Shown here piece after piece: positions 26,649 to 44,960 of a DNA stretch of 64,000 nt. The first letter of the stretch is position 1, and each line of letters begins with the position of its first letter. The stretch is from Stenotrophomonas maltophilia (GTDB lineage Bacteria; Pseudomonadota; Gammaproteobacteria; Xanthomonadales; Xanthomonadaceae). Both the position numbers and the translations under genes were made by a program. The notes under the pieces were generated by a model that had not been told where the DNA came from, did no database searches, and saw only the letters and a list, made by a program, of their open reading frames with translations. The stretch covers positions 1 to 64,000 of the forward strand of contig NZ_CP090423.1 of the NCBI RefSeq assembly GCF_023518235.1. The letters run 5' to 3'.

Positions 26649-28061
26649 ATGGGCGGCAACAACGCACCGATCATGGTCAACGGCGGTAACGTCTACGACA
26701 GCCCGCTGGGGTATGACGCGCCGATCAACTACGACACCGGCCAGGTGAACCTGTCGTCGCTGGGCGTGGAATGGTCCCTGAAGAAGGCACGGCAGGAGGT
26801 GATCCGCCGCCTCGGCTTCGTGGTCGAGCCGGTGAAGGTGCAGCGCACGTTCGACCAGCTGCGACAGACGGTATCGACGGCGCTTGGCTTCACCTACGTG
26901 GGCACGCCTGCGCCGCGCACGATGGCATCGCTGCGGTTGGATCTTCTGCGTCGGCTCGGCTTCTCTGCTCAGGCCACGGCCGATGCCTGGGCGCCGGGCG
27001 TCAAAGAGCTGCTGACCAACTTCCTTTCCGAAGCGCAGGTGGCGCTGCAGCACCAGTACCGGCTGAGCGTCAGCACGCCGCTGGCGCCGTTCCATGACGA
27101 CGCCGACGTGACCACGCTCGATCCGTGGGCCGTCTTCCTGCTGGCGCTGGCCAACGGCAAGGCCCACCACGGCCAGCAGGACGCGAAGGCCTACTACGAC
27201 CAGCTGGGCGGCTACATCACCACCGTTGCGAAGTCTGCGGACGTGGACCAGATCATCAACACCGCGCAGGACTCGCTGCTGCAGCGGTATGCAATGGACC
27301 GCTACGGCGACGGGAAGGCGCCGCTGGTCGAAGGCGACGACAAGACCCTGATCGACGGCGTGGCCGTGGAAATGCAGGCGATCGCCGATGCGAAGGCAAA
27401 GTACGGCCAGAAGGATGCCGAGGCCTACTACAGCCGCCTGCAGGAGATGGCACAGCGTCGGCCGTTCGACCTCGACGCGATGGTCGACAGCTTCATTCGT
27501 GACGCTCAGGACCAGCTGTATCAGCAGTACAAGGAGCTGCGCACCGAGCGGTGGTGGACCATCCAGTGCGTGCCGGGCGCCAACCTGTACGACGTGCCGC
27601 TGGATCTGGATCAGTACCTGGACTTCCGGCGAATCACCTGGGCGGGCATTCAGGACGACGTGCAGTGGATGCCCCTGATCGAGGGCATCGACCCTGTGCT
27701 GTACACCAGCACCTCGCTGAGCAAGCCAGCCTATTACCGGATCACCGGCTGCATCGAGATCTTCCCGGCACCGGACCGCGCGTACACGATCAAGATCCGC
27801 GGCCATCTTGGCCTGAAGTGGCTCACTGGTGATGGCGATCTGCTGACGGTCAACAGCCGCGCGGTGTTCCTGCATGCTCTGGCGAACGCGAAGGCGCACT
27901 ACAAGCAGCCCGACGCCGGCAACTACATGCAGCAGGCCCAGGCCTACGTTCGGCAGCTGATCTCCGGCTCCCACGGCACCCGGCGCTACATCCCCGGCGC
28001 GCGGCAGATTCCGCCGGCCCGGCGCCCGATTCCCGTTGGCGGCTGGCCGGAGGGCAACTGA
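26649..28061 (+). CDS. Head-to-tail adaptor with triplicated domain
   Basis: 470 residues. Three related blocks are visible, each a helix ending in a sequence like LANGKAHHGQQDAKAYY (~166), ADAKAKYGQKDAEAYYSRL (~243) and LANAKAHYKQPDAGNYMQQA (~410), and each preceded by a helix of the type SEAQVALQHQY / DSLLQRYAM / DAQDQLYQQYKEL. Between the halves of the third copy is a beta-rich insert (WWTIQCVPGANLYDVPLDLD). Single-copy domains of this type form adaptor rings under portals (T7 gp11- and P22 gp4-like). RBS CTGGAGAACG. Confidence 0.7.
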   Translation: MGGNNAPIMVNGGNVYDSPLGYDAPINYDTGQVNLSSLGVEWSLKKARQEVIRRLGFVVEPVKVQRTFDQLRQTVSTALGFTYVGTPAPRTMASLRLDLLRRLGFSAQATADAWAPGVKELLTNFLSEAQVALQHQYRLSVSTPLAPFHDDADVTTLDPWAVFLLALANGKAHHGQQDAKAYYDQLGGYITTVAKSADVDQIINTAQDSLLQRYAMDRYGDGKAPLVEGDDKTLIDGVAVEMQAIADAKAKYGQKDAEAYYSRLQEMAQRRPFDLDAMVDSFIRDAQDQLYQQYKELRTERWWTIQCVPGANLYDVPLDLDQYLDFRRITWAGIQDDVQWMPLIEGIDPVLYTSTSLSKPAYYRITGCIEIFPAPDRAYTIKIRGHLGLKWLTGDGDLLTVNSRAVFLHALANAKAHYKQPDAGNYMQQAQAYVRQLISGSHGTRRYIPGARQIPPARRPIPVGGWPEGN

Positions 28062-30541: not shown

Positions 30542-30578
30542 CCATTGATCAAGGGGGGTAGGAAGTCAGCATTTCGGC

Positions 30579-31088
30579 ATGATTTCCCCCCGTCTCCCCC
30601 GCAATGTTGTGCCCTGTCGGCCACTCCACCTGGTGGTGCTGGCCGACATCCTTCGGCACGAAGAGCAGCGCCAGTTCCGGGCCGTCTTGGGCGGCACCGC
30701 CTACAGTCCCGACACCGCTGCACACGCCCTGGTGAACGCCTGGGCCACTTCTTCCCCGTATGCCCTCACCGTTCTGCGCGCCGACGGTACGCCGGCTGCC
30801 GCTGGTGGATTCGAGCCGGTCGGCCCGGGCACCTGGCAATCGTGGATGGTTGGCACGGAACAGGGCTGGGCCGAGCAGTGGCGCTCCATGACGAAGGCCA
30901 GCCGCTGGCTGATCGACCAGCTGTTCGAGGCCGGCGCGCGGCGGCTGCAGGTCAATGCTCTGGCTGACCGCTTGGCGGCCATCGAGTGGTTCGAACGATC
31001 GCTGGGGATGCAGGACGACGGTGTCTGGAGCGGGCAGGGCGCCAACGGCGAGGACATCGCTCACTTTTCACGCATGCGAGGTGCCTGA
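30579..31088 (+). CDS. GNAT-like acyltransferase, virion-associated type
   Basis: 169 residues. WLIDQLFEAGARRLQVNALA and RLAAIEWFERSLGMQDDGVW are the last strand-helix pair of a GNAT fold, where the end of the domain packs. Phages of this architecture often carry such a protein between nozzle and ejection genes, and it may be packaged. The acetyl-CoA P-loop (Q/RxxGxG/A) is not obvious, so it may be inactive or bind another ligand. The start has a poor Shine-Dalgarno. Confidence 0.65.
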   Translation: MISPRLPRNVVPCRPLHLVVLADILRHEEQRQFRAVLGGTAYSPDTAAHALVNAWATSSPYALTVLRADGTPAAAGGFEPVGPGTWQSWMVGTEQGWAEQWRSMTKASRWLIDQLFEAGARRLQVNALADRLAAIEWFERSLGMQDDGVWSGQGANGEDIAHFSRMRGA

Positions 31089-31699
31089 TGGGCGGTAGTA
31101 GCGGAAGCAAAGCGGCCAATGCCGCATCACAGACCGAGGCTTGGCGAACCTCGAACATCAATCGCGCTACCGACCAGGTGAACCGGCTGTACAGCGCACC
31201 CTCGCGCCAGGCCGGTTACGACGACTTCCTGGGCGCCACTCGGGATTTCTACGGCGGCGAGCTGGCGCGGCAGAAGGAACAGGCAGACAGAAGCCTGAAG
31301 TTCGCGATGGCCCGCAGCGGCCTCGCCGGTGGATCTGCATCCATCGACGCCAACCGCCGCTTGGGCGAGGACTATCAGCGCGGCGTGCTGGATGCCGAGC
31401 GTCTGGCGCAGGGAGCGCTGGCCGACCTGAAGGCCTCGGACGAGACCTCACGCCAGAACCTGCTGTCGCAGGTCGCCGGCGGAATGAGCCTGACCAGCGG
31501 CGCCACGCAGTCGGCGCAGGCGCTGCAGGGCAACCTGCAGGCCGCGCAGGGCCGGCTGCGGGCGGAGAACCTGGGCGACATCTTCAGTGGATTCGCCGAC
31601 CTGTACAGCCGCAGCCGAGAGGCGGCGCAGGAGCGGCGTGGAGCACGCGACTTCAACACCCTGTTCCAGCCGGGCTTCGGCTATGGCGGTCGCCAATGA
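31088..31699 (+). CDS. Ejection (internal virion) protein 1
   Basis: 203 residues, helical, Gly/Ser/Ala/Gln-rich (FAMARSGLAGGSASIDANRR; TSGATQSAQALQGNLQAAQG). MGGSSGSKAANAA starts the protein. Small glycine-rich helical proteins of this look precede larger ejection proteins in P22/BPP-1-like phages. It overlaps the acyltransferase stop by one base. Confidence 0.65.
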   Translation: MGGSSGSKAANAASQTEAWRTSNINRATDQVNRLYSAPSRQAGYDDFLGATRDFYGGELARQKEQADRSLKFAMARSGLAGGSASIDANRRLGEDYQRGVLDAERLAQGALADLKASDETSRQNLLSQVAGGMSLTSGATQSAQALQGNLQAAQGRLRAENLGDIFSGFADLYSRSREAAQERRGARDFNTLFQPGFGYGGRQ

Positions 31700-32133
31700 A
31701 CACGATGCCTGATGTGATCAGCACTATGGCTCGGCTGGTGAGCCAGCCTTCGCTGGCTGACATCGTGCAGCTGCAGGACCTGTGCGCGCAGCTGCCGCAG
31801 GCGGATATGCCGGTGCAGCACACTTTCCTCCCCGGCCAGTACCTGCGCCGTATGTCGATGCCAGCCGGCGCCCTGGTGGTGGGGAAGCGGCACCGCTTCC
31901 GGCATGCCCTGATCGTCTCTGGCCACGTCACCCTGCGCACTGCCGACGGCATGGTGGAGCTGCAGGGCTTCCACGTCATCGACTCGCCGCCTGGCATGAA
32001 GCGCGCCATCTACGCGCACGCGCCGAGCGAACTGGTAACCGTCCACCTCACGGACGAAACCGATCTGGAGCGGATCGAGGCGCTGGTGATCATGCCCGAC
32101 GACGAGCCGTTGGAATTGGAGGAACAGCCATGA
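31696..32133 (+). CDS. Cupin-like phage protein
   Basis: 145 residues. A single-domain cupin barrel is suggested by KRHRFRHALIVSGHVTLRTA and MVELQGFHVIDSPPGMKRAI, with histidines placed as in metal-binding cupins. It is conserved between ejection genes of similar podoviruses. Ligand unknown. 4-bp overlaps on both sides. Confidence 0.65.
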   Translation: MNTMPDVISTMARLVSQPSLADIVQLQDLCAQLPQADMPVQHTFLPGQYLRRMSMPAGALVVGKRHRFRHALIVSGHVTLRTADGMVELQGFHVIDSPPGMKRAIYAHAPSELVTVHLTDETDLERIEALVIMPDDEPLELEEQP

Positions 32134-32804
32134 CGTGGGTCGCAACGGCCATCGCGGTGATCGGCGCCGCAACGCAGCAATACGCACAGCACCAAGCCGG
32201 GAAGAAGGCCGACCGGCAGGCAGCGAATCGGATCTATCAGCAGGCGGAGAACCAGGACCGTGCCGACTATGCTGTGAACCAGCTGCTGACACAGCGTGCG
32301 ACGGATGACGGAAGCACCGAGCGCGCAAGTACCGCGCGCAGCATGATGGATCAGTCGCGTGCCGCGCAGGCCGCCGCCAGCCGCGGCCTGAATCAGGCTG
32401 GTGCTGTGAGCGAGGCCTACCGCACCGCGTCCAATGACGCCGCGCTGGGTATCAGCGATTACGGCCAGCGCGCCGCCAACCTGATGGCCCGAATCGATGC
32501 ACCACAGCAGCTGCGCAGGCGCGAAGCGCTGCAGAGCGGGAATCTCGCGTCGCAGCTGGGCCTGATCGGGCGCGAGGCGGCCAGCGACGACTTCCTGGCG
32601 AGGATGCGCATGCAGGGGATTCAGGCCGATCCGTGGTTGATGGCGGCCGGCCAGATGGCACAGGCGGGCGCACGCGCCTACTCAGCGAACCAGGCGAGCA
32701 AAGACGCTCCCACCCTTGCTGGCTTGATGGGGAAGGGATCGAACCGGGGCTTCGGCAACGAGGCGTCCAGCTGGTTCAACAATCAATCCTTGTGGGGGCG
32801 CTGA
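32130..32804 (+). CDS. Ejection (internal virion) protein 2
   Basis: 224 residues. A hydrophobic N-terminus (MTWVATAIAVIGAATQQYAQ) followed by long Ala/Gln/Arg-rich helices, ending SSWFNNQSLWGR. Composition and place in the gene order are those of proteins delivered into the cell envelope during DNA ejection. Confidence 0.65.
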   Translation: MTWVATAIAVIGAATQQYAQHQAGKKADRQAANRIYQQAENQDRADYAVNQLLTQRATDDGSTERASTARSMMDQSRAAQAAASRGLNQAGAVSEAYRTASNDAALGISDYGQRAANLMARIDAPQQLRRREALQSGNLASQLGLIGREAASDDFLARMRMQGIQADPWLMAAGQMAQAGARAYSANQASKDAPTLAGLMGKGSNRGFGNEASSWFNNQSLWGR

Positions 32805-32805
32805 C

Positions 32806-33840
32806 ATGGCGAACGGATGGGAAAGGCTGGGAGAGGTGTTCGCCGGCACCGCTGCTGGGGGCAACGACTCCTATTCACGCGGCGTTTCGAAGCAGGCGCA
32901 GCTTGCGCAGCTGCTGGCTGGGGCGCAGATCAAGCAGGATGAGGCGATGGCCCGTGACGAGCTGTTGGGGTCGATGATCGCCAATGGCACCGCTCGCCCT
33001 GAAGCCACGATGCTTTCGACCATGTTGCGCATGGGCGCGGATCCTACGAAGTTCTCCGGCTACCAGGGCGATGTCCAGACGCAGGGGTTCCAATCCGAGG
33101 CGATGGACGCAGCGCGCAGCGGGAACGTGCCGCTGCTCAATGACATCATGACCGCGATCTCTGGCCGGCCCCGCCAAACGGCCACCATGAGCGAAGGCAC
33201 GCTCTTCGACCCCTATGGCGCCGTCGGCCAGTCCGTCAACGTCACGCCCGTTGGCCAGTCGACCATCGGCCAGCGCAACGCAGCTGCCGCGGCCAGTTAC
33301 GCGACTGCCGCGCGGACAAGGCAGGCGCAGCAGCTGGACCTGATGAAGGAAATGCGCGCCGGCGCTGGCGGAGCCGCCTCCCCAGGTCAGCCGAAGCGTG
33401 CCAGTGCAGCCGACATGAAGGCACAGCAGGCGGCGACCACGAAGGCTGCGCAGTTGGGCAACGTTACGCGCGGACTTGATCGCATCCAGAGCGCCCTAGG
33501 GGGGCTATCGGGGGCTCTGGTCGATACCGGGCCGCTGGACCAGTACGTGATGCGGAACACGCCCGCCGGCCAGGAGCTGGACGCCGCTGTGGGTGCGATC
33601 CAGAACTCGATGCTGGCGCTGACTCGCGTTCCAGGCGTTGGTTCGCAGTCCGACCTGGAAGCACGCATCGCCGCGCTGCAGTACCCAAGTCTCGGCGTCG
33701 CGCCGGAAGTGAACGCGCGCACCATGCGTCAGCTGCGTGACTTCGTGACCGAGCTCCAAGGCGTCAGCATTGCGCCAACCGCTGCACCCTCCGCTGGCGG
33801 CGGTGTGGATGATATTCTCGGCAAGTATGGGGTCCGCTGA
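32806..33840 (+). CDS. Ejection (internal virion) protein 3
   Basis: 344 residues, helical and Ala/Gly/Gln-rich, starting MANGWERLGEVFAGTAAGGN. The middle has a long helical stretch (AAAASYATAARTRQAQQLDL). The ending GGGVDDILGKYGV is a typical phage structural tail peptide. It overlaps the next gene by one base (TGATG). Confidence 0.65.
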   Translation: MANGWERLGEVFAGTAAGGNDSYSRGVSKQAQLAQLLAGAQIKQDEAMARDELLGSMIANGTARPEATMLSTMLRMGADPTKFSGYQGDVQTQGFQSEAMDAARSGNVPLLNDIMTAISGRPRQTATMSEGTLFDPYGAVGQSVNVTPVGQSTIGQRNAAAAASYATAARTRQAQQLDLMKEMRAGAGGAASPGQPKRASAADMKAQQAATTKAAQLGNVTRGLDRIQSALGGLSGALVDTGPLDQYVMRNTPAGQELDAAVGAIQNSMLALTRVPGVGSQSDLEARIAALQYPSLGVAPEVNARTMRQLRDFVTELQGVSIAPTAAPSAGGGVDDILGKYGVR

Positions 33841-35969
33841 TGGCCACTCTGGAGCAACTGGAACAGGCCCTGCGTGCCGCTGATGCCGCCGGCAACACCG
33901 AAGATGCTCGGCGGCTCGCACAGGCGTACAAGGCCCAGCGGGACGCGGAGCAGGGGTCTCAGGCTCCGGCTGCCAAGCCTCCAATCACGGATCTGCCGCC
34001 GGTGCAGGCCGTGGCACCCGATGGCTGGGAGTACGGCATGGGGCGTGATGCTGCCTTCGGCCTGCGCTCAATCCTCCAGGGAGGCGGCAGCCTGCTCGGT
34101 GCGCTGGGCGGTGACGCCCTCGGCGCGCTGGAGACGAAGATTACCGGCCGCCCCGTGGCCAGCTTCCGGGACAATGCTGCGCGCTTGGCCGATGTGCTGG
34201 GCCTGCCACAGGCGCAGACCGCCGGCGACCGCGTGCTGGGCGATGTCGGCGAGGCGCTGACCGGTACCGCACTGACGCTTGGCGGCGGTGCAGCCCTCAA
34301 TGCAGGGCGTGCGGTGGCACCCACGCTGACTTCAGCTGCACCGGCGCCTACGGCAGTACCTGGTCTTGCCGAGCGCGCTGGAGAATTCCTCACTGCTCAG
34401 CCAGTGCTGCAGGCGATCAGCACGATCGGCAGTTCTGGTGCGGCCGGGCTGGCCCGAGAGAGTGGCGCAGGTCCTGCTGGCCAGCTGGCGGCCGCACTTG
34501 CCGGCGGCATTGGCCCGGCGGCTCTCATGCAGGGCGGCGCTGCAGCAGTTCGAGGTGCCGTGCGTGGCCGGTCCGGTGAGGCCATGCGGAACTCCATCGC
34601 CGACTTCGAAGCGCTGGGCACGACCCCATCCGTCGGCCAGGCATCGGGTAACACCAACCTGCAGGGCGTGGAGAACCTGCTGGCGGGCGCGCCGACCAGC
34701 TCGGGCGTGATGCGCCGTTTCGCCGAAGGGCAGGGCAACGACATCGCCAAGAACCTCGGGGAGCGGTCTCGCGCACTGGCGGCAGACCCCACCCGACAGA
34801 ACGCTGGCATGGCCATCGAGAAGGGTGTCGCAGCCTTCAAGGGCGACGTCACTGCACGCCGCCGGGCACTGTATGACGCCGTCGACCAGCTGGTGCCGCC
34901 GGACACCCCGGTGCGCCTGGACCGGACCAATGCCGAACTCGCACGGCTGACCGCTGTGGACCCCGGTGCACCTGCCTCTGCGGCATCGATGATCCCGGAC
35001 GAAGTCACGCAGCTGGCCCGCAACATCGCATCCGACCTGGGCGACGGTGGCACCGCGCTGCCGTACCAGACCTTCAAGGATCTGCGGTCGAACCTGGGCA
35101 ATGGCCTGTTCGACTTCACCCTGACCCCTGACCGCGCCACGTCGCAGCTGCGCGGCGTGTACCGCGCCATGGGCGACGACATCGAGGCGGCGGTGCAGGC
35201 ACAGGGCGGCAAGGCCCCGGCAGCGCTGGCGCGGGCGAACGCCTACTTCAAGTCCACGCAGGAGCAGCTGAAGCAGCTGGAGCGCGTGGTGAACAAGGCC
35301 GGCGGCCCGGAGAAGGTCTACAACGCGGTGATGGCCGGCGCTGGCGAGGGCGGCACCACGCTGAAGCGAGTGATGGAGGCTCTGCCGGATGACGGGAAGA
35401 AGTCCCTGACGGCCGCGGTGCTGAACCGGATGGGCCGACCAACGCCGGGCCAGGCCGGGCTGCCTGCCGAGCAGTTCAGCCCCGGCACGTTTATGACCAA
35501 CTGGAGCAAGCTTTCCGACGAGGCGAGGCGGGAGCTGTTCGGCCACTACGGGCCGGGCTTCGCCAAGGATATGGACCAGATCGCCCGGGTGGCCGACAAC
35601 ATCAAGAGCGGGTCGCAGGTGTTCGCCAACCCGAGCGGCACAGGAAATCGCGCTGCAGCGTATACCTATGGTGCCGCGCTGGTGGCCTCGCTGATGGACC
35701 TTACTGGTACATCCACAGGCACTCTGCTGCTAGGTGGAGCGGGGGCGAATGTCGCTGCCCGCATCTTGACCTACCCGCCAGCTGTGCGCTGGCTTTCTCG
35801 AGCGACCACGGCGCCAGTAGGGTCGGTGATCGGATCGCTCGCATCCTTGCGCAACATTGCGTCCAGCACTGGTGATCAAAAACTGGCGGACATTGCCGCA
35901 GAACTAGAGAAAGTAATGCCCGACGAACAGAAGGGCGCAAACAACGGTACCGACAATCGACAAAAATAG
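33840..35969 (+). CDS. Large ejection protein (internal virion protein 4)
   Basis: 709 residues. The N-terminal motif LEQALRAADAAGNTEDARRL is a common anchor of large phage ejection proteins (P22 gp16-like class). A glycine/alanine-rich hydrophobic region (~150-230) could insert in membranes. The C-terminal half is helical. No transglycosylase motif was seen. The last 66 bp overlap an opposite-strand cargo gene. Confidence 0.72.
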   Translation: MATLEQLEQALRAADAAGNTEDARRLAQAYKAQRDAEQGSQAPAAKPPITDLPPVQAVAPDGWEYGMGRDAAFGLRSILQGGGSLLGALGGDALGALETKITGRPVASFRDNAARLADVLGLPQAQTAGDRVLGDVGEALTGTALTLGGGAALNAGRAVAPTLTSAAPAPTAVPGLAERAGEFLTAQPVLQAISTIGSSGAAGLARESGAGPAGQLAAALAGGIGPAALMQGGAAAVRGAVRGRSGEAMRNSIADFEALGTTPSVGQASGNTNLQGVENLLAGAPTSSGVMRRFAEGQGNDIAKNLGERSRALAADPTRQNAGMAIEKGVAAFKGDVTARRRALYDAVDQLVPPDTPVRLDRTNAELARLTAVDPGAPASAASMIPDEVTQLARNIASDLGDGGTALPYQTFKDLRSNLGNGLFDFTLTPDRATSQLRGVYRAMGDDIEAAVQAQGGKAPAALARANAYFKSTQEQLKQLERVVNKAGGPEKVYNAVMAGAGEGGTTLKRVMEALPDDGKKSLTAAVLNRMGRPTPGQAGLPAEQFSPGTFMTNWSKLSDEARRELFGHYGPGFAKDMDQIARVADNIKSGSQVFANPSGTGNRAAAYTYGAALVASLMDLTGTSTGTLLLGGAGANVAARILTYPPAVRWLSRATTAPVGSVIGSLASLRNIASSTGDQKLADIAAELEKVMPDEQKGANNGTDNRQK

Positions 35970-36098
35970 CGCTATCAACAGGCCCCAGCCTTTGAGTCCA
36001 AGGCTGGCCTCGTGCTTCCGCTCCCAGTCCTTCCGCCGGATCTCGCTCCACGCCTTCTCCGGGTGGAACTGCCCCGCATCCTTGAATCTGTCGTCCAT
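35904..36098 (-). CDS. Small membrane cargo protein
   Basis: 64 residues: charged N-terminal half (MDDRFKDAGQFHPEKAWSEI) then a helix ending in the membrane (LKGWGLLIALFLSIVGTVVC). AGGAA precedes the ATG. It reads against the late genes and follows the lipoprotein gene, so the two may form a lysogen-expressed operon, for example for superinfection exclusion. Its 3' end overlaps the ejection gene. Codon use is more AT-rich than the neighbours. Confidence 0.6.
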   Translation of the reverse strand: MDDRFKDAGQFHPEKAWSEIRRKDWERKHEASLGLKGWGLLIALFLSIVGTVVCALLFVGHYFL

Positions 36099-36111
36099 TT
36101 TCAGTTCCTTG

Positions 36112-36498
36112 TTAGAAGTCGAGTAGTTGGGTCGTGCCGCTGCCACCGCATTCAAAGGGGAGTGCCTCATGAGCGGACGCCTCTCTGACGCGCGGTATGA
36201 CCCAGGCCGGGACCTGATCGGCGTAGCAGTATGGCTGGGATCCCCCCATGCGGCTGTACGCGCTTCTTCCACCGCAGACCTCTCCGATGGAGTCCTTGTC
36301 ATCGGGGCACGCGCATTCGCCACCGTACTCAAGCTTCGCAAGTGCTGTTGCGATGTAGGCGATTGAAACGTCACTCTTCGCAGCCATCACAGCACGATTC
36401 TGTTCCAGCATCCCTGAGCAGTACGCCGGCTGTCCAAATGTCGAGCACCCGCCAAGCACAACGGTAGCTGCCAAAATTACTATTCCCTTCCAGCCCAT
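36112..36498 (-). CDS. Putative lipoprotein encoded by the prophage
   Basis: 128 residues. Signal peptide with lipobox LGGC (Cys18), so lipidated and probably outer-membrane or periplasm-facing. The mature part has seven cysteines besides the lipid one (YCSGM, GECACPDD, EVCGG, PYCYAD, FECGG), implying disulfides. GGGAGG precedes the start. Phage lipoproteins expressed by lysogens often block receptors; that is an inference here. Confidence 0.65.
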   Translation of the reverse strand: MGWKGIVILAATVVLGGCSTFGQPAYCSGMLEQNRAVMAAKSDVSIAYIATALAKLEYGGECACPDDKDSIGEVCGGRSAYSRMGGSQPYCYADQVPAWVIPRVREASAHEALPFECGGSGTTQLLDF

Positions 36499-36612
36499 GA
36501 TGCCTCCCTGCGTTACCCGGATGGTACCACCAGCCCCGGCCGCCCCCCGCGCCCATTGAAGGGCAGGGGCCGGGGGGTAGGGTGGCCCGTATCGTTCAGT
36601 CCAGAGGCCGCC

Positions 36613-36894
36613 ATGCTGTCAGCCGCCATCGTCGTCACCGGGAAAGGCATGTTCATTGAGTGGCCGGGGTGCCCCGACGACGAGTTCACCGTTCCGCTGC
36701 ATGCCGATGCCGTCATCCTGTTCCGGCGGGTCGCGTCTAGCCCAGCATGTTTTGAAGCAGTGGCAGTGCTTTCTGCCAGTTGTCCAGACCGGCATCCACC
36801 AGCTTCAGTACAAGGTGTTTGGTGGTCTCGCCCGGCAGCTCTCGAAGCTGATCGAGGAATCGCTGCTTATCGGGCGGAGGCAGATCCGAGCTGA
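36613..36894 (+). pseudogene. Small rightward gene with replaced 3' end (likely remnant)
   Basis: AGAGG precedes the ATG, and the first ~42 codons have strong GC-ending codon use (SAAIVVTGKGMFIEWPGCPD; FTVPLHADAVILFRRVAS). The codon pattern collapses exactly where the opposite-strand gene ends (36737), and the frame then runs on through antisense DNA. This suggests that the cargo gene was inserted into the 3' part of a small late gene. It may still make a chimeric 93-residue product. Confidence 0.4.
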
Positions 36895-37216
36895 GCACCT
36901 TGGCCTCGATGAGTGCCTTTAGCGTGTCGTCGTGAAGTTTGATCGTGACGACACCGAGGATTGCGCCCAATCCGCCATCGTCAGCCAGAAAATCCATACC
37001 TCGAGCGGTAATGGTTGCCTGCATGAGCATGTTTCCACGGTCCAAGCTGCCAAGCCATTGGCCCTTCACTAGACCGTGCTCATGCAAGTAGGCGATGTTC
37101 ACGTTGGCCCTATTGAACTCACCCTGGGCCATCGTCCCTGCATCGACTGGCTCCGGGTAGCTCTCGGCCAAACGCTGGAGCAATTGCAGCTGGTATGCCC
37201 TGTCAAGTAGTTCCAT
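36737..37216 (-). CDS. Winged-helix-like cargo protein of unknown function
   Basis: 159 residues from the ATG at 37216 behind GGAGACGG. Residues 1-75 look like a winged helix (YQLQLLQRLAESYPEPVDAG; NIAYLHEHGLVKGQW; ITARGMDFLADDGG). The C-terminal half is a helical domain (DKQRFLDQLRELPGETTKHL). Similar two-domain proteins occur in prophages and mobile elements without known role. It faces away from the endolysin gene, and its AT content is above the phage average. Confidence 0.6.
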   Translation of the reverse strand: MELLDRAYQLQLLQRLAESYPEPVDAGTMAQGEFNRANVNIAYLHEHGLVKGQWLGSLDRGNMLMQATITARGMDFLADDGGLGAILGVVTIKLHDDTLKALIEAKVLSSDLPPPDKQRFLDQLRELPGETTKHLVLKLVDAGLDNWQKALPLLQNMLG

Positions 37217-37340
37217 CTGTCCGTCTCCGGTAGTGGTTGGGTTGGTTGGCGCCGCCAACTCTACCGGAGAACGGATTCCTCCCATTGATCGCCGCCCCCC
37301 AAAAGGCACCGTAGGCCCATCACTTCCAAGGGGGCCGACA

Positions 37341-37832
37341 GTGGCACGAATCACAGCACAGGAGGCGGGCGGGCAGAACGTCGTGGCGTTCCTGGACATG
37401 CTGGCCTGGTCCGAAGGGACCGATAACGGCCGGCAGCCGACTAAGCAGAACGGCTACGACGTCCTGGTGGGCGGCGGCCTGTTCACCGACCTCAGCAAGC
37501 ACCCCGGCAAGCTGGTGCGGCTCAACGCCACGCTGAAGTCCACCGCGGCCGGCCGCTACCAGTTCCTGCAGCGCACCTGGAGCGTGCTGCAGGCGCGGCT
37601 GAAGCTGCCGGACTTCGGCCCGCTGAGCCAGGACAAGGCCTGCATCGAACTGATCCGCGGCCGCCGCGCGCTCGATGCGGTGAAGGCCGGCCAATTCGAC
37701 CGCGCCGTGGCCCTGTGCGCCAAGGAGTGGGCCAGCCTGCCGGGCGCCGGCTATGGCCAGCATGAGCAGAGCCTGGAGAAGCTGCGGCAGATCTACAAGA
37801 AGGCCGGCGGCACTCTGGGTGGGGGCGTATGA
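37341..37832 (+). CDS. Endolysin, lambda R-type transglycosylase
   Basis: 163 residues from the GTG at 37341 behind AAGGGGG. It aligns by eye with lambda R: FLDMLAWSEGTDNGRQ with catalytic Glu25, then NGYDVLVGGGLFTDLSKHP, LKSTAAGRYQFLQRTW and WASLPGAGYGQHE. R-type enzymes cut peptidoglycan glycan strands by lytic transglycosylation. There is no signal peptide, so it needs a holin. Confidence 0.95.
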   Translation: MARITAQEAGGQNVVAFLDMLAWSEGTDNGRQPTKQNGYDVLVGGGLFTDLSKHPGKLVRLNATLKSTAAGRYQFLQRTWSVLQARLKLPDFGPLSQDKACIELIRGRRALDAVKAGQFDRAVALCAKEWASLPGAGYGQHEQSLEKLRQIYKKAGGTLGGGV

Positions 37833-38146
37833 GCATGGAAGCCCAGCCGAGCCAGGACGGCCGCACCCGCGTTTCCCTCGGCCCGGTGGAAAAGTGGTTC
37901 GTGACCGCTTTCGCCGGATTCATCGTTGCTGGCGGGTACTGGCTGATCAGTTCCATGCAGGCGGTGCTGACCCAGCAGCAGGTCACGAACCAGCAGATGG
38001 CCACCGTGCAGCAGCAGCTGCAGACCTTCAACACGCAGCTGGCCGACGTGCCGGCGCTGAAGCTCGAGCTGGCCAAGCAGGCCGTGCAGGTCGAGCAGAA
38101 CAAGGCTGACATCAAGGAGCTGAAACAGCTCAGGGGGCTGAAGTGA
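37829..38146 (+). CDS. Membrane-anchored coiled-coil lysis-region protein
   Basis: 105 residues. One membrane helix (WFVTAFAGFIVAGGYWLIS, ~24-42) then a Gln-rich coiled coil to the end (LTQQQVTNQQMATVQQQLQT). Position suggests a holin partner, antiholin or a second holin, but the single helix with long coil is not diagnostic. 4-bp overlaps on both sides. Confidence 0.6.
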   Translation: MSMEAQPSQDGRTRVSLGPVEKWFVTAFAGFIVAGGYWLISSMQAVLTQQQVTNQQMATVQQQLQTFNTQLADVPALKLELAKQAVQVEQNKADIKELKQLRGLK

Positions 38147-38382
38147 AGGACCGATTCAACTGGCAGGGCGTCGCCGGCCGGGCCAGCACCTGGCTGGCCA
38201 CCCTTGCTGCCGCCGCAGCCGCTGCGCTCGGCGCCTACGCGCTGATGCCGGAGCGGGCGCAGAACCTGTTCCCCGAGTGGGGCCTGATCGTGCTGGGCGG
38301 CCTGGCCGTCGGCGGCGCCTTCCTGGTTCCCGTGGCCACCAGCTTCAAGCAGAAACCCAAGAGCCCAAAGGAGGGCGTATGA
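38143..38382 (+). CDS. Holin candidate
   Basis: 79 residues with two membrane helices (TWLATLAAAAAAALGAYALM and GLIVLGGLAVGGAFLVPVAT) and a charged C-terminus (SFKQKPKSPKEGV), the class II holin plan. It lies in the lysis cassette after the endolysin. It would time release of the endolysin. Confidence 0.65.
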   Translation: MKDRFNWQGVAGRASTWLATLAAAAAAALGAYALMPERAQNLFPEWGLIVLGGLAVGGAFLVPVATSFKQKPKSPKEGV

Positions 38383-38768
38383 CCCAGCACTACATCGGTT
38401 CGAAGATCATCGAGGCATGGCCCGCACAGAAGGACGGCGCGGACGGATACTCGGTGAAGTACGCCGACGGCTACATCAGCTGGTCGCCCAAGGATGTGTT
38501 CGAAGCGGCCTACCTGCCGATCGGCCACGTCGGTCATCTGCCGCCGCATGTGCAGCGCATGGTCGGCGAACTGGAGCAGCTGAACGACAAGATCAGCAAG
38601 CTCGGCAAGTTCCAGGGCACCGACATCTACTCCAGCCTGTCGGAAGACGAGCGCGCCGATCTGGATGCGCAGGGCAAGTGCATGGTCGGCTACTGGAACG
38701 CGCTGCTGTCCCGTGTCAATCGCGCCCGTGCTGAGTACGAGGTCGCTGAAGCAGGTCCAGCGGCATGA
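38379..38768 (+). CDS. Acb2/Tad1 hairpin-domain protein, Tad1-like anti-defence candidate
   Basis: 129 residues in two parts. Residues ~4-47 (YIGSKIIEAWPAQ, then GYSVKYADGYISWSPKDVFE) form the beta module often seen at the N-terminus of Tad1-like and related phage proteins. Residues ~56-123 (LPPHVQRMVGELEQLNDKIS, then LSEDERADLDAQGKCMVGYW) form the helical hairpin shared by Tad1 and Acb2, proteins that sponge Thoeris gcADPR or CBASS cyclic nucleotides. Recognition is from memory of the families. Located in the lysis operon with 4-bp overlaps. Confidence 0.65.
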   Translation: MTQHYIGSKIIEAWPAQKDGADGYSVKYADGYISWSPKDVFEAAYLPIGHVGHLPPHVQRMVGELEQLNDKISKLGKFQGTDIYSSLSEDERADLDAQGKCMVGYWNALLSRVNRARAEYEVAEAGPAA

Positions 38769-38911
38769 AGCCCATCACCCACAACCCCTACACCGGGATG
38801 CCGCGTGATCCCCGCGACATCAAGAGCGATCCCATGGCGGTGCTGTGCGTGAAGCCTGGAGCCCCGCTGATGGCATATGCACAGCGGCCAGCAGGACAGC
38901 GGCCGTGCTGA
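38765..38911 (+). CDS. Small phage protein in the lysis operon
   Basis: 48 residues (MKPITHNPYTGMPRDPRDIK). It bridges the Tad1-like gene (4-bp overlap) and the i-spanin start (7-bp overlap). Function unknown. Compact overlaps support translation. Confidence 0.5.
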   Translation: MKPITHNPYTGMPRDPRDIKSDPMAVLCVKPGAPLMAYAQRPAGQRPC

Positions 38912-39339
38912 TCCCTGACCCGCTGCAACCCTACGCGAAGCTGATCACTGCGGCCCTATGGGCGGCAGTGGCAGCAGCCTTGATTCTGATGGGCGCCCGG
39001 CTCGGGTCGGATTACCGGATCAAGAAGGACCAGGCTCTGATCGCCGCTGCCGAGAAGCAGCGCGACAAGGCCCAGGCCGCTTCCGACGAGAATCTTCGCG
39101 CGGCCACCGCCGCCGGCCAGCTGCTGCAGGAAGTGAACAGGCAGACCCAGGCGTCGATCGATGCGGCCGAGGCAGCCCGAAAGGCCTCCGATGCTGCGGC
39201 CCGCCGTGCCGAAAAGGCAGCGGCTGAGGGTCAGCGACGCGCCACTGCCGCGGAGAAGGCCCTGGAGGCCGCCAAGACCCAGCCCGCGTGCCGGGCACAA
39301 CTGGAGCAGACCCTGTGCGATTCCATCCCGCTGCTTTGA
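38905..39339 (+). CDS. Rz-like inner-membrane spanin
   Basis: 144 residues from a GTG. One N-terminal membrane helix (LITAALWAAVAAALILMGAR) then a long periplasmic coiled coil (Ala/Glu/Lys/Arg-rich), ending CRAQLEQTLCDSIPLL. With Rz1 it bridges both membranes and fuses them at the last step of lysis. Length and order fit i-spanins. Confidence 0.8.
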   Translation: MLIPDPLQPYAKLITAALWAAVAAALILMGARLGSDYRIKKDQALIAAAEKQRDKAQAASDENLRAATAAGQLLQEVNRQTQASIDAAEAARKASDAAARRAEKAAAEGQRRATAAEKALEAAKTQPACRAQLEQTLCDSIPLL

Positions 39340-39590
39340 TGCTGCTGGTGCTGGCCGGCTGCACCCACAAACCGGAGCGGCCGAAGCTACCCGAGGTGGT
39401 TCACGTCCCCGTCGAGAAGCTGGTGCCCGTCGACGCCCGCCTGACCAAACCGTGCCCGGCCAAGCGCGCCAGGTCCCGCACGGTTGAGGCGGTGGTGGCC
39501 GCCTACAACGCCAACCTGATCGTGCTGCAGGACTGCGACAACCGCATGGGCGAGATCCGCAGCCTGGGTGAGGGGAAGACCCAGCCGTGA
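39288..39590 (+). CDS. Rz1-like outer-membrane lipoprotein spanin
   Basis: Up to 100 residues. Lipobox LAGC (Cys25 from the GTG at 39288), followed by a proline-rich segment (HKPERPKLPEVVHVPVEK). It overlaps the Rz 3' end in another frame, the usual embedded or overlapping spanin layout. A start at the ATG 39339 would leave a very short signal (MLLVLAGC), so 39288 is preferred. Confidence 0.75.
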   Translation: MPGTTGADPVRFHPAALMLLVLAGCTHKPERPKLPEVVHVPVEKLVPVDARLTKPCPAKRARSRTVEAVVAAYNANLIVLQDCDNRMGEIRSLGEGKTQP

Positions 39591-40582
39591 GCAAGGTCAA
39601 GCTCCAGGACAACCTCGGCCGTGTGGTGAACATCAATGCTGATGCCACCAAGGGCGCCATCGTGGGCGTCAACCTGTACGGACCAGATGGGGAGACGCTG
39701 ATCGATCCGGCGTCGCTGGGGCTCGGTGGCGGCGGGAGCAGCAGCACGCCCTGGGACAGCCTGTCCGGCATCCCGCGCAACATCAACGCCTTGGCCCAGC
39801 TGTCGGGTATTGGCTACCCGGTTCTGGTCGGCCCTGCCGACTGGCGCATGCGGACCTTCCGTGCCGGCGGCGGCATCACCGTCGTCAACGGTAATGGCCG
39901 CGATGGCGACACTGTGGTGCGGCTGGAAGAAGTTGGGAACACCGAAGACGGCCAGGCGCTGTTGAAGATCACCCGCGACGTGTACGGCCGCGTCATCGCC
40001 ACCGCGGCAGCGACAACCGACGACTTGGCCGAGGGCGGGAGCAATCTGTACTTCACCGCCGCGCGTGCTGATGCACGGGCCGATGCGCGCATCGCTGCGC
40101 AGAAGGGCCAGCCCAACGGTATTACGCCGCTGGACGCCGCCAGCAAGATCCCGACGCAGTACCTGCCGGCGCTTGCGATCACGGCCACCTATGTGGTGAA
40201 CAGTGAGGCCGCGCAGCTGGCGCTGGTGGTGGAGGAGGGCGACGTAGCCGTCCGCACGGACCAGAACCGCACCTACATCCAGAACGGCGGTACCAGCGGC
40301 ACGATGGCTGACTGGACCCAGCTGCTGATGCCCGCAGCACCGGTGCAGTCGGTAAACGGCAAGACGGGCACGGTGGTGCTGACGTTGGCCGACCTTGGCG
40401 CAGCACCTGCGGCCGCTCCCGCCATGACATTGGCCGCTGCCAACGCGCTGACTGGCGTGCAGGACTTCCAGGTGGTGGGCATCACCGACCTGAGCGGCGG
40501 CCGTGAGCTGTGCTGGTACGACGCTACTGTGGCCACCGGCACGAAGTGGCGCCGCTTCTCCGACCGGAGCATCGCAAACTGA
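39587..40582 (+). CDS. Tail fibre protein
   Basis: 331 residues. GSNLYFTAARADARADARIA and PVQSVNGKTGTVVLTLADLG are recurring phage fibre motifs, the latter from shaft segments. A glycine/serine linker (GLGGGGSSS) separates a small N-terminal domain that could attach to the tail. The C-terminus (LCWYDATVATGTKWRRFSD) is a short tip module. Host recognition is inferred. Confidence 0.8.
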   Translation: MSKVKLQDNLGRVVNINADATKGAIVGVNLYGPDGETLIDPASLGLGGGGSSSTPWDSLSGIPRNINALAQLSGIGYPVLVGPADWRMRTFRAGGGITVVNGNGRDGDTVVRLEEVGNTEDGQALLKITRDVYGRVIATAAATTDDLAEGGSNLYFTAARADARADARIAAQKGQPNGITPLDAASKIPTQYLPALAITATYVVNSEAAQLALVVEEGDVAVRTDQNRTYIQNGGTSGTMADWTQLLMPAAPVQSVNGKTGTVVLTLADLGAAPAAAPAMTLAAANALTGVQDFQVVGITDLSGGRELCWYDATVATGTKWRRFSDRSIAN

Positions 40583-41322
40583 TGGCCCTCGATCCATCCA
40601 TTTCGATCATCCGCGGGTTGCAGGCCTCGGTGGGCCTCAACGGCCGCACGGTGAGCGTGTCGCCTGGCATGTGCTATCTGCCGGGTCCCATCCGCATGCT
40701 GTTCGACGGCACGGCCTCGGTGGACATCCCCACCGGCCAGCCCAACACGTTTTTCCACCTGTATGGCTACGACAGCGGCGGCGGCGTGGGCGCGCTGGAA
40801 GCCAGCACCGTGGCGCCGGCGGCACCGTACCTGGGCACGGCCCGCTACAAGACCGGCGACCCGACGCGCCGCTACCTGATCTCCGGCCGCACCAATGCCA
40901 GCGGCGTGCTGCGGCCTGGCCGCCACACCCGGCCGGCCGAGATGGGCAACCGCGTGATGCTGGATGCCGCCAGCGCGGCCGGATCGGTCCCGGTGACCCT
41001 CTTGTCTGGCCTGGTGTCGACCACTCCGCAGACCATCGATCTGTCCTCGGTTCTGCCGTCTACTGCCACTCGCGCGATCGTGCAGGTGCTGAATCCATCG
41101 AGTTTCACGCTCTACACCTCGCGGTCGGACGTCGGCGCGCCCTCGCCTTCCAATTACCAGTACGCGGCCATTGCCGGCAGCTGCCCGGTGCTGGACGTGA
41201 CCCTGGACGCCAATCGGCAGTTCACCGTGCTGCTGAGCGCTACCAACATTCTCGGCGGGATCATCGCGCTCCTGACCGGTTCCGTTTCCATCAACCTGGT
41301 CGGCTACGAGTTCGACCGATAG
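40582..41322 (+). CDS. Tail fibre-associated protein
   Basis: 246 residues, beta-rich (ISIIRGLQASVGLNGRTVSV; PNTFFHLYGYDSGGGVGALE). Its start overlaps the fibre stop (TGATG). It may be a fibre connector or tip. No enzymatic motif. Confidence 0.65.
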   Translation: MALDPSISIIRGLQASVGLNGRTVSVSPGMCYLPGPIRMLFDGTASVDIPTGQPNTFFHLYGYDSGGGVGALEASTVAPAAPYLGTARYKTGDPTRRYLISGRTNASGVLRPGRHTRPAEMGNRVMLDAASAAGSVPVTLLSGLVSTTPQTIDLSSVLPSTATRAIVQVLNPSSFTLYTSRSDVGAPSPSNYQYAAIAGSCPVLDVTLDANRQFTVLLSATNILGGIIALLTGSVSINLVGYEFDR

Positions 41323-41331
41323 GAGAGCCCC

Positions 41332-43515
41332 ATGGCGACTCGCTTCCCCGAAGACATCGACGCCTTCGACAACCCGCGACCGGACAGCAGCCAGGCGCAG
41401 GCGCGTACGCACTCGCAGCAGCACGGTGATGCAAACGATGCGCTGGAGGCCATTCAGCGCAAGGTGGGGGTCGATGGATCGGTCGATCCTGAGTCCTTGG
41501 ACTACAAGGTGCGGATTGTCGTTGGCATCACCGACGGTATCCAGAGCGCCGCATACGAAGCCAAGGAGGCCTTCGCCAATGCTGCGCAGGGGATCAGGGC
41601 AGATTCCGCTGTGCAACCCATCCAGCTGAATTCGGCGACTGAGCAGCTGCAGGCTGAAATTGCCGCGTCGCAGACGCAGCTGCAGACGCAGATCGACGGG
41701 CTTGTCGATGGGCAGCAGACGCAGGCGATCTATGCAAACACCCTGGCCGATTTGCAGGCCGTATCTGGCTCGTACATCGGGCAGGGTGGTTTCGCGTTGA
41801 ACGGTACCGGCGCTGGTCAATACCGCTGGACTGGATCCGCCTGGGAGTTTCTCCGCGCCGACATGCTGACTCAGAAGGCAGACCAGGCAGACCTCATCCA
41901 GACCCAGCAGTACCTTTCCGATTCCTACTCCGTTCCGTTGATGCGCAGAATTCCGATTGCCGGCACCACGAACGTTGTCGGCGATGTTGTCGGGAACGTG
42001 ATGTATGACGTCGACATGAGGACGGTCCTGTTGAATGGATCCCCGTTGCTCGACGGTCCAGCAGCGGAAATGCAGATCAACGCGAACCTGGCCGGCACGA
42101 TGGGGACAGATACCTACTCGGCACCAGCATCTAGGCGTATTCCCTTGGTGGGAACGACCAACGGGGCTGGCGACGTAGTGGCCAACGTACAGTACGACGT
42201 GGACGCAAAGTCGCTTCTGGTGAATGGCGAGTCCGCTGTCAGCCAATCTCTGCGATGGGCGCCTGTTGTAGCTATTCAGCCAGTGCCAGTGACGGGCGTC
42301 ATGCACCTGATGACATACGGGCAATCGCTGAGCAACGGCGTAAACAGCATTCCGCCGGCCAGCACCGGGCAACCTTTCCTCAACCTCACCTTCGCGCAGG
42401 GGCCCAGATCGACCAAGGCCGGAAGCGTTGGCCAGCTGCCGGGCATGGATTCACTGGTGCCCCTGATCGAAAACACCCTGACAGGTGACGGCGTGGCCAG
42501 CCCGCAGCACGGCGAAACACCCTGCTCGGCGTGGGCGAACGGCCTGACGCGACGCCTCGCGCTGGGTGGTGTGGATTGGCGGACCGCCGGCCCGCGCTGG
42601 CTGGCCACGGCCAATGGCAAGGGTAGTGCCAGCATCAATAACCTGTTGCCGGGTGGATCATCGGACCTCGGCGAGTGGTTCCAGGTGCTGCGCGACGCCG
42701 TTGACCAGGCGCGCGTTCTATCTCTGGGCGCCGGCTTGACCTACAGCCTGCCGTGCTGGATCTACATGCAGGGCGAGGGCGACAATGCGGACGCGGCGAT
42801 GGCTGGGGGCGTCTATCTGGCGAAGCTGCAGCAATTGCACGAGGCGGTTTCTGCAAAGGTACAGGCCGCGACCGGGTCCAGCTTTGTTCCATGGATCGGT
42901 GTCTACCAGACCTTCGCGCGGACCCTGCGGGAGCGCCCCCACGCGACAATGGACCAGATCACTTTCTGCGAGCAGACGCCGGGAGCGTTCCACCTCACTG
43001 CGCTCTACCACCTGCCGCTCGCCTCGGATGGCCACCTGACTGCATTGGGTAGCTACTGGGTTGGAGAGTACGCGGCGAAGAAGGTAAAGCAGCTTCTGGA
43101 TGGGCAGCGCCCAACGTGGATGCGGGTTGGCTTCGCAACGGTCAGCGGCAGGGTGCTGAGGTACAAGCCGAAGGAAATTCCCGTGGCGCCTCTTCGTCTC
43201 CTCGCAGATGGCAATCTGCGCCAGACCACTGACTTTGGTTTCCTGGTCCGCGATGCCAACGGCGGCTGCGCGATCGAGAGTGTCGGCATCAGCAAGGCCG
43301 GCGATGAAGTGGTGATCACGTTGGTGTCTGTTCCGACAGGAGCCGTGCAGCTGCGCTACGGCCTCGACTACCTTCCGGCTGGCCAGGTGAACTATGCGGG
43401 GTCCGCAGGCGGGAACCTGGTTGATAGCGATCCCTCATCCTTCACATTCGCGGGTACTGAGTACCCGCTCTACAACGTCTCTCCGCACTTCCAGTGCGAT
43501 GTGATTCCGGCGTAA
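41332..43515 (+). CDS. Tailspike with SGNH/carbohydrate-esterase domain
   Basis: 727 residues. N-terminal anchor and coiled region (AQARTHSQQHGDANDALEAI), then two ~60-residue repeats (SYSVPLMRRIPIAGTT ~198; TYSAPASRRIPLVGTT ~260). The C-terminal domain has SGNH-like blocks: TYGQSLSNG (~327, Ser nucleophile in GQS), YMQGEGD (~479) and SDGHLTALG (~565, catalytic Asp-His). Such domains remove O-acetyl groups from polysaccharides, here probably O-antigen or capsule. AGGAG RBS. Confidence 0.75.
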   Translation: MATRFPEDIDAFDNPRPDSSQAQARTHSQQHGDANDALEAIQRKVGVDGSVDPESLDYKVRIVVGITDGIQSAAYEAKEAFANAAQGIRADSAVQPIQLNSATEQLQAEIAASQTQLQTQIDGLVDGQQTQAIYANTLADLQAVSGSYIGQGGFALNGTGAGQYRWTGSAWEFLRADMLTQKADQADLIQTQQYLSDSYSVPLMRRIPIAGTTNVVGDVVGNVMYDVDMRTVLLNGSPLLDGPAAEMQINANLAGTMGTDTYSAPASRRIPLVGTTNGAGDVVANVQYDVDAKSLLVNGESAVSQSLRWAPVVAIQPVPVTGVMHLMTYGQSLSNGVNSIPPASTGQPFLNLTFAQGPRSTKAGSVGQLPGMDSLVPLIENTLTGDGVASPQHGETPCSAWANGLTRRLALGGVDWRTAGPRWLATANGKGSASINNLLPGGSSDLGEWFQVLRDAVDQARVLSLGAGLTYSLPCWIYMQGEGDNADAAMAGGVYLAKLQQLHEAVSAKVQAATGSSFVPWIGVYQTFARTLRERPHATMDQITFCEQTPGAFHLTALYHLPLASDGHLTALGSYWVGEYAAKKVKQLLDGQRPTWMRVGFATVSGRVLRYKPKEIPVAPLRLLADGNLRQTTDFGFLVRDANGGCAIESVGISKAGDEVVITLVSVPTGAVQLRYGLDYLPAGQVNYAGSAGGNLVDSDPSSFTFAGTEYPLYNVSPHFQCDVIPA

Positions 43516-43526
43516 AGGAGCCTGAC

Positions 43527-44282
43527 ATGCCTTACATCTTCCCCGTCTATCCGCTCGGCCAGGACACTCCGGGCGCACCAATCATCAATGGAGCAACCCA
43601 GCTGTATCCGTACACGCCAGCACCCGAGCCTGGCTACGCGCATTGGCTGCTGGGAGGCGATGGGTCGAGCCTTGTACCATACGGTGGTGATGCGACGCTC
43701 ACCGCACAGGGCGTTTCGCATACATGGGGATCCAACTACGTCAACCTGCCGAGCTACCAGAACGCACTGATCTCCAGCGTTGCCGATGCCACCGTCCAGA
43801 CCTTCTACGCGGCCGTGCGCTATGCCCCAGTCTCTGGAAAGAATGTGATTGTGGTCGGAAACATCAGCCTCGCTAGCCAGGGCGCTGGCATCTGGATCGA
43901 CGGCAACGGCAACGTCTGTACGATTCTGCGCAACTCCAGTGGAACCGTACTGGTGAACCATGGCGTGCCAGCCAATACGGCGGTGGGGGACTGGATATTC
44001 CTGGGCCTTTCGAAGCGAGTGGAGGCAGGAGTCTCGAAGACCCTGACCAGCGTCGGTAGCGTGGTTTACGAGGTCGTGTGGCCCGCAGTTCAGGCGGTCT
44101 CGGGGAGCAATCACATCGCCATCGGCAACCCGCTCAACAGCTCCAGCACCTACACCCCTGCAGACCTCCGGGTCGGCGAGCTGCTGATCAAGCCCAACCT
44201 GGCCGATTCTGCCGCCCAGATGATGAGCGTGTATTCCCACAGTCGCGCCCGTTTGGCGCCGCGAGGCATCATGCTGAAGTGA
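43527..44282 (+). CDS. Tail tip protein, lectin-like fold
   Basis: 251 residues, beta-rich (MPYIFPVYPLGQDTPGAPII; TFYAAVRYAPVSGKNVIVVG; GAGIWIDGNGNVCTILRNSS). Pattern resembles LamG/concanavalin-type jellyrolls used for glycan binding. AAAGGAG lies before the start. It is probably a co-receptor-binding or chaperone-like component of the spike. Confidence 0.6.
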   Translation: MPYIFPVYPLGQDTPGAPIINGATQLYPYTPAPEPGYAHWLLGGDGSSLVPYGGDATLTAQGVSHTWGSNYVNLPSYQNALISSVADATVQTFYAAVRYAPVSGKNVIVVGNISLASQGAGIWIDGNGNVCTILRNSSGTVLVNHGVPANTAVGDWIFLGLSKRVEAGVSKTLTSVGSVVYEVVWPAVQAVSGSNHIAIGNPLNSSSTYTPADLRVGELLIKPNLADSAAQMMSVYSHSRARLAPRGIMLK

Positions 44283-44293
44283 GGTAGATGGCA

Positions 44294-44314
44294 GGGCCGA
44301 GCAAGACTCGGCCC
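44294..44314 (+). terminator. Hairpin after the late operon
   Basis: GGGCCGAG and CTCGGCCC make a perfect 8-bp stem with a 5-base loop 11 bp after the last tail gene. There is no T tract, so termination efficiency is uncertain. Confidence 0.5.
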
Positions 44315-44443
44315 CGCGATTCGGGCAAATTGACGATTTCGTCAAGCTGCCGATGCAGGGCTAACAATTGGTAGCCCAAACGATTCAGGGAGGTGGCCGG
44401 CCCGTTCGCAGGATCTGCGACGGCCGGCCGTATCCTCCCGGCC

Positions 44444-44788
44444 ATGCCGCTCCCCGCCGATTTCCGCTGGACGACCAGGTCTGCCAGCCTGCCGAACGAC
44501 CCGCTCACCGTGATTGCCTGCCACAGCGTGTGGGTGGTGGCCATGGCCCAGCGGGTGAACGACGGGATCTGGATCGCCTCGCTGGACCGGCATCGGCATG
44601 GCCCCGGCGGTCCGTTCCGCTGGTGCAGCAGCTACGAGCAGGGCCGGGCAGGGGCCGAGCTGTGGGTGGCCAGGCACGAGGAAAGGCTGCGGGAGGATGT
44701 GGCCAAGATCCTGGCGTGGCAGGAGAAGGTCCGGGGGAACCGGCTGGCCAAGGCCGACCAGGATCCGCCATTCGGCTGGATCGGGTAG
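44444..44788 (+). CDS. Phage right-end hypothetical protein
   Basis: 114 residues (MPLPADFRWTTRSASLPNDP start; DRHRHGPGGPFRWCSSYEQG middle; helical C-terminus). It lies alone between the late operon and attR, so it may be expressed from its own promoter in the lysogen. No known domain; function unknown. Confidence 0.65.
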   Translation: MPLPADFRWTTRSASLPNDPLTVIACHSVWVVAMAQRVNDGIWIASLDRHRHGPGGPFRWCSSYEQGRAGAELWVARHEERLREDVAKILAWQEKVRGNRLAKADQDPPFGWIG

Positions 44789-44798
44789 GGGCAGGCTG

Positions 44799-44806
44799 CA
44801 CCCTAT
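44799..44806 (+). promoter_or_regulatory. Candidate integrase arm site on the right
   Basis: CACCCTAT, the same octamer as the three phased copies next to attL, here 106 bp from the attR core. Having the word on both arms and nowhere obvious else supports an integrase-binding role. Confidence 0.5.
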
Positions 44807-44912
44807 CCGCGCGTAAGTGATTGATCGTATTGGGGCGCAATCTGCACTTTTGGGATGCCTCGCGCAGCCCCGAAACCCTTATAGATCAAAAGGATGGTCC
44901 TATCTGTAACGA

Positions 44913-44960
44913 TGCCTGGGGGGCAGAGGGTCGTCGGTTCGAATCCGGCCGTCCCGACCA
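44913..44960 (+). repeat. Right attachment core (attR)
   Basis: Exact 48-bp copy of the tRNA-Pro 3' portion. It lacks the tRNA 5' half, so no tRNA is made here. The surrounding 44789-45077 (about 290 bp) holds only the arm site, this core and the displaced host terminator. Confidence 0.95.

Follow-up and report, generated by a model that had tools for sequence, protein, structure and literature searches.

A beta module-helical hairpin protein of a Stenotrophomonas maltophilia prophage as a candidate sponge-like counter-defence protein distinct in sequence from Tad1 and Acb2

Tad2 and Acb2 are signal sponges, and proteins of the Acb2/Tad1 family assemble as hexamers with ligand pockets. Here we compare with these systems a 129-amino-acid (aa) protein, P0001, encoded by a prophage within positions 1 to 64,000 of Stenotrophomonas maltophilia contig NZ_CP090423.1 (this whole stretch of 64,000 nucleotides is called the window). 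An earlier, sequence-only reading of the window had proposed that P0001 is Tad1-like and that it forms a second signal-sponge candidate beside a Tad2-like gene of the same phage. The Tad2-like gene is clearly so by its matches to PF11195 (E = 9.8e-24) and to the solved Tad2 chains 9eib and 8v3e (E = 7e-25). For P0001, the evidence as a whole is best explained by a two-domain, sponge-like phage counter-defence protein that is not Tad1 or Acb2 by sequence, a reading to which we give an even chance.

The open reading frame (ORF) of P0001 is a real gene. Its ATG lies just 3' of an AGGAGG and overlaps the preceding 79-aa ORF by 4 base pairs (bp; ATGA), and a relative is encoded in 301 of the 306 viral-contig stretches that match the search pattern. 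Compared with relative L001, nucleotide differences number 10, 7 and 44 by codon position, with nonsynonymous (dN) and synonymous (dS) divergences of 0.07 and 0.94; the values are 0.10 and 0.65 against L002, and 0.16 and 1.15 against L003. With dN well below dS in all three comparisons, the gene is under purifying selection.

Residues 55-114 of P0001 match the crAss001_48 profile PF21825 (E = 1.9e-13; 50.5 bits against a curated cut-off of 24.8; profile positions 1-60 of 61), and as the match exceeds the cut-off across the whole domain, the hairpin is assigned to this family, which is named but given no function in the libraries used. Pfam at E up to 10 returned nothing else for P0001 and nothing for the module, and the NCBIfam search gave no match; among PHROGs, phrog_32732 covers residues 1-113 and others cover one half each. 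The two-part layout described in the sequence-only reading, a beta module followed by a helical hairpin, is borne out by the AlphaFold2 model (35-sequence alignment; mean predicted local distance difference test (pLDDT) 94.2, predicted template modelling score (pTM) 0.82), which places strands within residues 3-49 and helices at 56-79 and 89-125; the module predicted alone also reached a pLDDT of 94.2. In a Foldseek search of viral models, the hairpin matched the 63-aa crAss001 protein A0A385DTI1 (template modelling score 0.95 by target, root-mean-square deviation 0.7, E = 0.029). The C-terminal domain thus belongs to the crAss001_48 family by both sequence and fold match, from which P0001 differs by its fused N-terminal beta module. 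The module consensus is YIGTK...GYxVxYxDGYxSWSPKDVFE across 55 aligned modules, in which the invariance of WSPKDVFE is partly by construction, this string having also been the search pattern and selection motif. Hairpin residues R60, E64, L75, F78, Q98, M102, L109 and R112 are kept in at least 60 of 63 distinct hairpins, while R60 is kept in only three of five hairpins fused to Tad2 without the module.

The hairpin had been read as the one common to Acb2 and Tad1 (PF24729), an assignment that the searches contradict. PF24729 did not match P0001 at E up to 10, nor, at E up to 1, any of 67 scanned members of the module family (distinct proteins selected because they resemble P0001); the test itself works, since it found T4 Acb2 (vs.4) and a 142-aa protein of Bacillus phage SBSphiJ7 (E = 2.1e-9), which we take to be Tad1. 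BLASTP of P0001 against that presumed Tad1 found nothing similar (best E = 13). Comparison by hhalign of the P0001 family with a 10-sequence Acb2 alignment gave a probability of 2.4% (E = 0.02) over 27 columns that paired unlike parts and not the hairpins. All aligned Acb2/Tad1 proteins (10 in one alignment, 11 in another) have a T followed seven positions on by an M (TxxxxxxM, mostly then W); comparison with an alignment of the P0001 family, in which Q98 and M102 are invariant, found this motif absent from the latter. The two families also occur side by side, each in a gene of its own, in L034 and L047 (Pfam) and in L015 (own profile). Fold searches with the P0001 monomer model contained no Acb2/Tad1 chain among the best 50 matches of each, presence lower down being possible. 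Distant membership, as first proposed, would fit the small size and the layout of Tad1 (beta part, then helical hairpin), and P0001 relatives are in a few phages neighbours of Acb2 genes or occupy the same slot as these. Nevertheless, we regard it as very improbable, as a profile that recovers vs.4 and the SBSphiJ7 protein does not recover P0001, profile, pairwise and motif matches are all lacking, and the families adjoin as distinct genes. At the level of sequence, the outcome that the sequence-only reading had itself named as speaking against a Tad1-like protein, no match of the C-terminal half to the hairpin family, is what was found, and P0001 is not assigned to the Tad1/Acb2 family.

The association with Tad2 begins with fusions. 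By domain profile, one module heads alternative partners: 42 of the 67 module-family proteins match crAss001_48, 19 are Tad2-like and 11 match Phage_gp49_66 (PF13876; hereafter gp49_66). A 428-aa phage protein (L365:3761-5047) holds Tad2, gp49_66 and hairpin (Pfam) together with the module (own profile) in one chain. Tad2 resembles P0001 in having, in other phages, the same N-terminal module, fusions, adjacency and portal-downstream slot; it is nevertheless an unrelated domain, none is present within P0001 and the Tad2-like gene of the same phage is separate. Likewise, gp49_66 is another module partner, though a different domain to which the libraries used give no function. Fusion of module, gp49_66 and hairpin was also seen in the uncultured crAss-like phage cr107_1 (L137:333-1016; own profiles). 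The module regions of L074 and L060 weakly match the MazG-like pyrophosphatase PHROG phrog_37613 (E = 0.0085 and 0.037), which hints at additional fusion partners.

Neighbourhoods were scored with our own profiles on loci anchored per family, with similar anchors removed and genes counted as adjacent when within 250 bp on the same strand. Anchors comprised 80 Tad2 loci found with the window's Tad2 (60 kept), 80 alpha-type Acb2 loci (70 kept) and 69 gamma-type Acb2 loci (18 kept). Of the 60 Tad2 anchors, 15 had the hairpin fused (8) or adjacent (7) and none had it elsewhere in the flanks; of the 70 alpha-type Acb2 controls, none had it fused or adjacent and one had it farther off (Fisher p = 3e-6). 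The hairpin-Tad2 link is strong, and the hairpin-Acb2 link sporadic. At the same Tad2 anchors, gp49_66 was fused in 2, adjacent in 15 and farther off in 3. Among 37 dereplicated module+hairpin anchors found with P0001, the fusion partner was Tad2 in 5 and gp49_66 in 2; the adjoining gene encoded Acb2 in 3 (plus one at 329 bp), gp49_66 in 3 and Tad2 in 1. A rival explanation for such fusions is that hairpin and module are assembly or adaptor domains that oligomerise or position partners such as Tad2 without binding a signal, in which case the partnerless P0001 would have some other protein of phage or host as its target. We consider this unlikely, though the most probable of the rivals: 30 of the 37 anchors consist of module+hairpin alone, the most frequent form; in L001, L003 and L004 the slot described below holds no other of the four families; and standalone hairpins of 65 and 81 aa occur in L343 and L344, though both stand beside Tad2.

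At one slot of related phages, homologues of P0001 are replaced by Tad2, Acb2 or gp49_66 genes. The homologues in L001, L003 and L004 begin 12 bp past the portal stop (L082 encodes the same protein as L004), the window's Tad2 gene lies 15 bp past its portal, and Acb2 lies 12-18 bp past the portal in L122, L133, L454 and L455. Pfam confirmed Acb2 in L122 and L454, Tad2 in L457, gp49_66 in L474 and the hairpin in L001. The portals of L001, L003 and L004 (767-774 aa) are distant relatives of the window's (681 aa), with phmmer E values of about 1e-116 to 1e-120. Three portal queries, one taken from the window and two from phages that carry the hairpin, were used to scan up to 3.5 kilobases downstream of portal genes in loci that were not dereplicated. 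With the L003 portal, 25 loci were found, of which 5 end at the portal; 17 of the 20 readable loci hold one of the four families (2 module+hairpin, being the contigs of L003 and L004 themselves, 4 Acb2, 4 Tad2, 1 Acb2 and Tad2, 6 gp49_66) and 3 hold none. The window's portal gave 21 loci (4 Acb2, 1 Tad2, 3 gp49_66 and 13 with none, 3 of which end early) and the L002 portal 27 (2 module+hairpin, being the contigs of L002 and L005, 4 gp49_66 and 21 with none, several being incomplete loci). In a combined tally of 48 dereplicated entries, which includes hairpin-anchored loci and the window, gp49_66 is the commonest of the four families (12), followed by Acb2 (6), Tad2 (5) and module+hairpin (4); one entry has Tad2 with module+hairpin, one has Acb2 with Tad2, and 19 have none. 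In L115, L121, L461 and L469, which lack all four families, the scaffold gene directly follows the portal.

A counter-defence role for P0001 is probable, because P0001 and its relatives share slots, gene neighbourhoods and polypeptide chains with Tad2, and either of the first two with Acb2. The Tad2/Acb2 association and a hairpin with conserved polar residues point further to a sponge mechanism, which we place a little short of an even chance. In the 63 distinct hairpins, each of R60, E64, Q98, M102 and R112 is retained in 60 to 63. P0001 would self-assemble through its hairpin, bind a nucleotide-type immune signal as its sponge neighbours do and, covering a different range of ligands, complement the Tad2 of the same phage. 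Candidate target domains are present in the genus, with SMODS in 10 and ThsB-type TIR in 9 of 90 genomes, counted as domains and not as complete systems. Links to Tad2 and Acb2 by fusion, adjacency and exchange at the slot thus lend indirect support to the idea of a second signal-sponge candidate beside Tad2, which has lost its Tad1/Acb2 family assignment.

Several observations weigh against a sponge-like counter-defence protein. Acb2 loci overall are not associated with the hairpin (0/70 alpha-type and 1/18 gamma-type, adjacent, the gamma-type query having itself come from a phage with an Acb2-hairpin pair). The co-occurrence of hairpin and Tad2 genes, which the sequence-only reading had suggested surveying, is modest in whole virus records, with a Tad2-like match in 7 of 34 hairpin records and in none of L001-L005. 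The Tad2-like and gp49_66 members were identified solely by domain, and some may not be inhibitors. Sequence searches of the PDB found no solved structure for module or hairpin, the P0001 model had no PDB fold match at E <= 0.001, and two-helix hairpins are common folds. Domain searches of the host's own genome gave no SMODS or ThsB TIR match. Of the five closest homologues, those of L002 and L005 are found a gene further on, with scaffold and capsid on either side, and in the window it is the lysis cassette, not the portal slot, that carries the P0001 gene. Finally, slot ORFs of 99 aa (L459), 118 aa (L484) and 131 aa (L125) belong to none of the four families; with other ORFs present or the slot empty, this cargo slot need not be purely anti-defence.

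More tentatively, module, crAss001_48 hairpin, Tad2, Acb2 and gp49_66 might constitute one interchangeable inhibitor toolkit, traded behind the portal and fused, in which crAss001_48 and gp49_66 would be two undescribed sponge or signal-degrading families; recent sponge surveys may already include PF21825. If this is true, the orphan families PF21825 and PF13876, which span crAss-like phages to Stenotrophomonas prophages, would gain a function and a direct test, the portal-downstream slot would be a natural hotspot for mining more counter-defence genes, and phages would be shown to combine several inhibitors of nucleotide-signal immunity in their late regions and to build multi-domain versions of them.

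As the sequence-only reading had stated, both genes of the window have late genes around them: portal and scaffold flank Tad2, and P0001 belongs to the lysis cassette, with the endolysin (phrog_90) and two short ORFs containing hydrophobic stretches upstream and, downstream, two ORFs of which the latter is an Rz1-like spanin (phrog_11951, PF23793) (Table 1). From this position, P0001 could be a lysis-timing regulator, antiholin-like or spanin-associated, as its place between holin-like and Rz-like genes and its 4-bp overlap with the preceding ORF would suit. However, we judge this highly unlikely: P0001 has no hydrophobic segment or signal peptide, as judged by eye, and its five nearest homologues from viral contigs have portal, scaffold and capsid genes as neighbours, in loci without a match to the window's lysis proteins. 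Nor does a lysis-cassette position imply a lysis role, because the module+Tad2 gene of Escherichia phage Huey also sits just after such a cassette. That Huey protein (L505:3001-3501) adjoins the lysis cassette and is annotated 'anti-CRISPR protein'; its Tad2-like domain spans residues 77-166, and the stretch before it weakly matches the module (E = 6e-4).

The prophage is flanked by a 48-bp repeat at a tRNA gene. The genome includes two additional contigs, C3 and C4, of 42,041 bp each, that are 100% identical to the prophage as circular permutations, which suggests that a circular, excised form of the prophage was present in the sequenced DNA.

Table 1. Coordinates of P0001, of other features of the window and of small slot ORFs in related loci (prefixed L)
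Feature	Position	Strand	Basis or remark
Prophage	2872..44960	.	42,041 bp plus 48-bp repeat
48-bp repeat flanking prophage	2872-2919 and 44913-44960		At 3' end of tRNA-Pro (2843-2919)
Portal protein	20333..22378	+	phrog_12082, E 6.9e-7
Tad2-like gene in portal-scaffold slot	22394..22744	+	PF11195, solved Tad2 chains
Scaffold-like ORF bounding slot	22786..23871	+	Between portal and capsid; relatives likewise placed; no PHROG match
Major capsid protein	24627..25688	+	phrog_9953, E 1.6e-31
Endolysin	37233..37832	+	phrog_90, E 8.7e-53; start codon uncertain
105-aa lysis-cassette ORF	37829..38146	+	Hydrophobic stretch then coiled-coil-like part, by eye; phrog_33341 (function unknown)
79-aa holin-like ORF	38143..38382	+	Hydrophobic stretches by eye; stop overlaps ATG at 38379; no PHROG match
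AGGAGG ribosome-binding site of P0001	38369..38374	+	Read from sequence
P0001 gene	38379..38768	+	129 aa; beta module and crAss001_48 helical hairpin; ORF, PF21825, AlphaFold2 model
N-terminal beta module (residues 1-49)	38379..38525	+	Alignment of 55 modules, AlphaFold2
crAss001_48 hairpin domain (residues 55-114)	38541..38720	+	PF21825 match
164-aa ORF	38845..39339	+	Rz-like by position only; phrog_35104 (function unknown)
Rz1-like spanin	39288..39590	+	PF23793, E 5.9e-10; phrog_11951, E 8.4e-19
Small slot ORF of L457	L457:7341-7640		99 aa, beside Tad2
Small slot ORF of L459	L459:7341-7640		99 aa
Small slot ORF of L125	L125:13205-13600		131 aa

Among the small slot ORFs, those of L484, L125 and L457 had no Pfam match; the L457 and L459 ORFs, both of 99 aa, resemble each other. 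In L484 (L484:8258-8611), a YRKKPVVIEA-type domain that Pfam does not match is located between scaffold and capsid, and L475 (L475:7341-8012) has a similar stretch ahead of Tad2 within a single chain; this domain is possibly a further cargo family.
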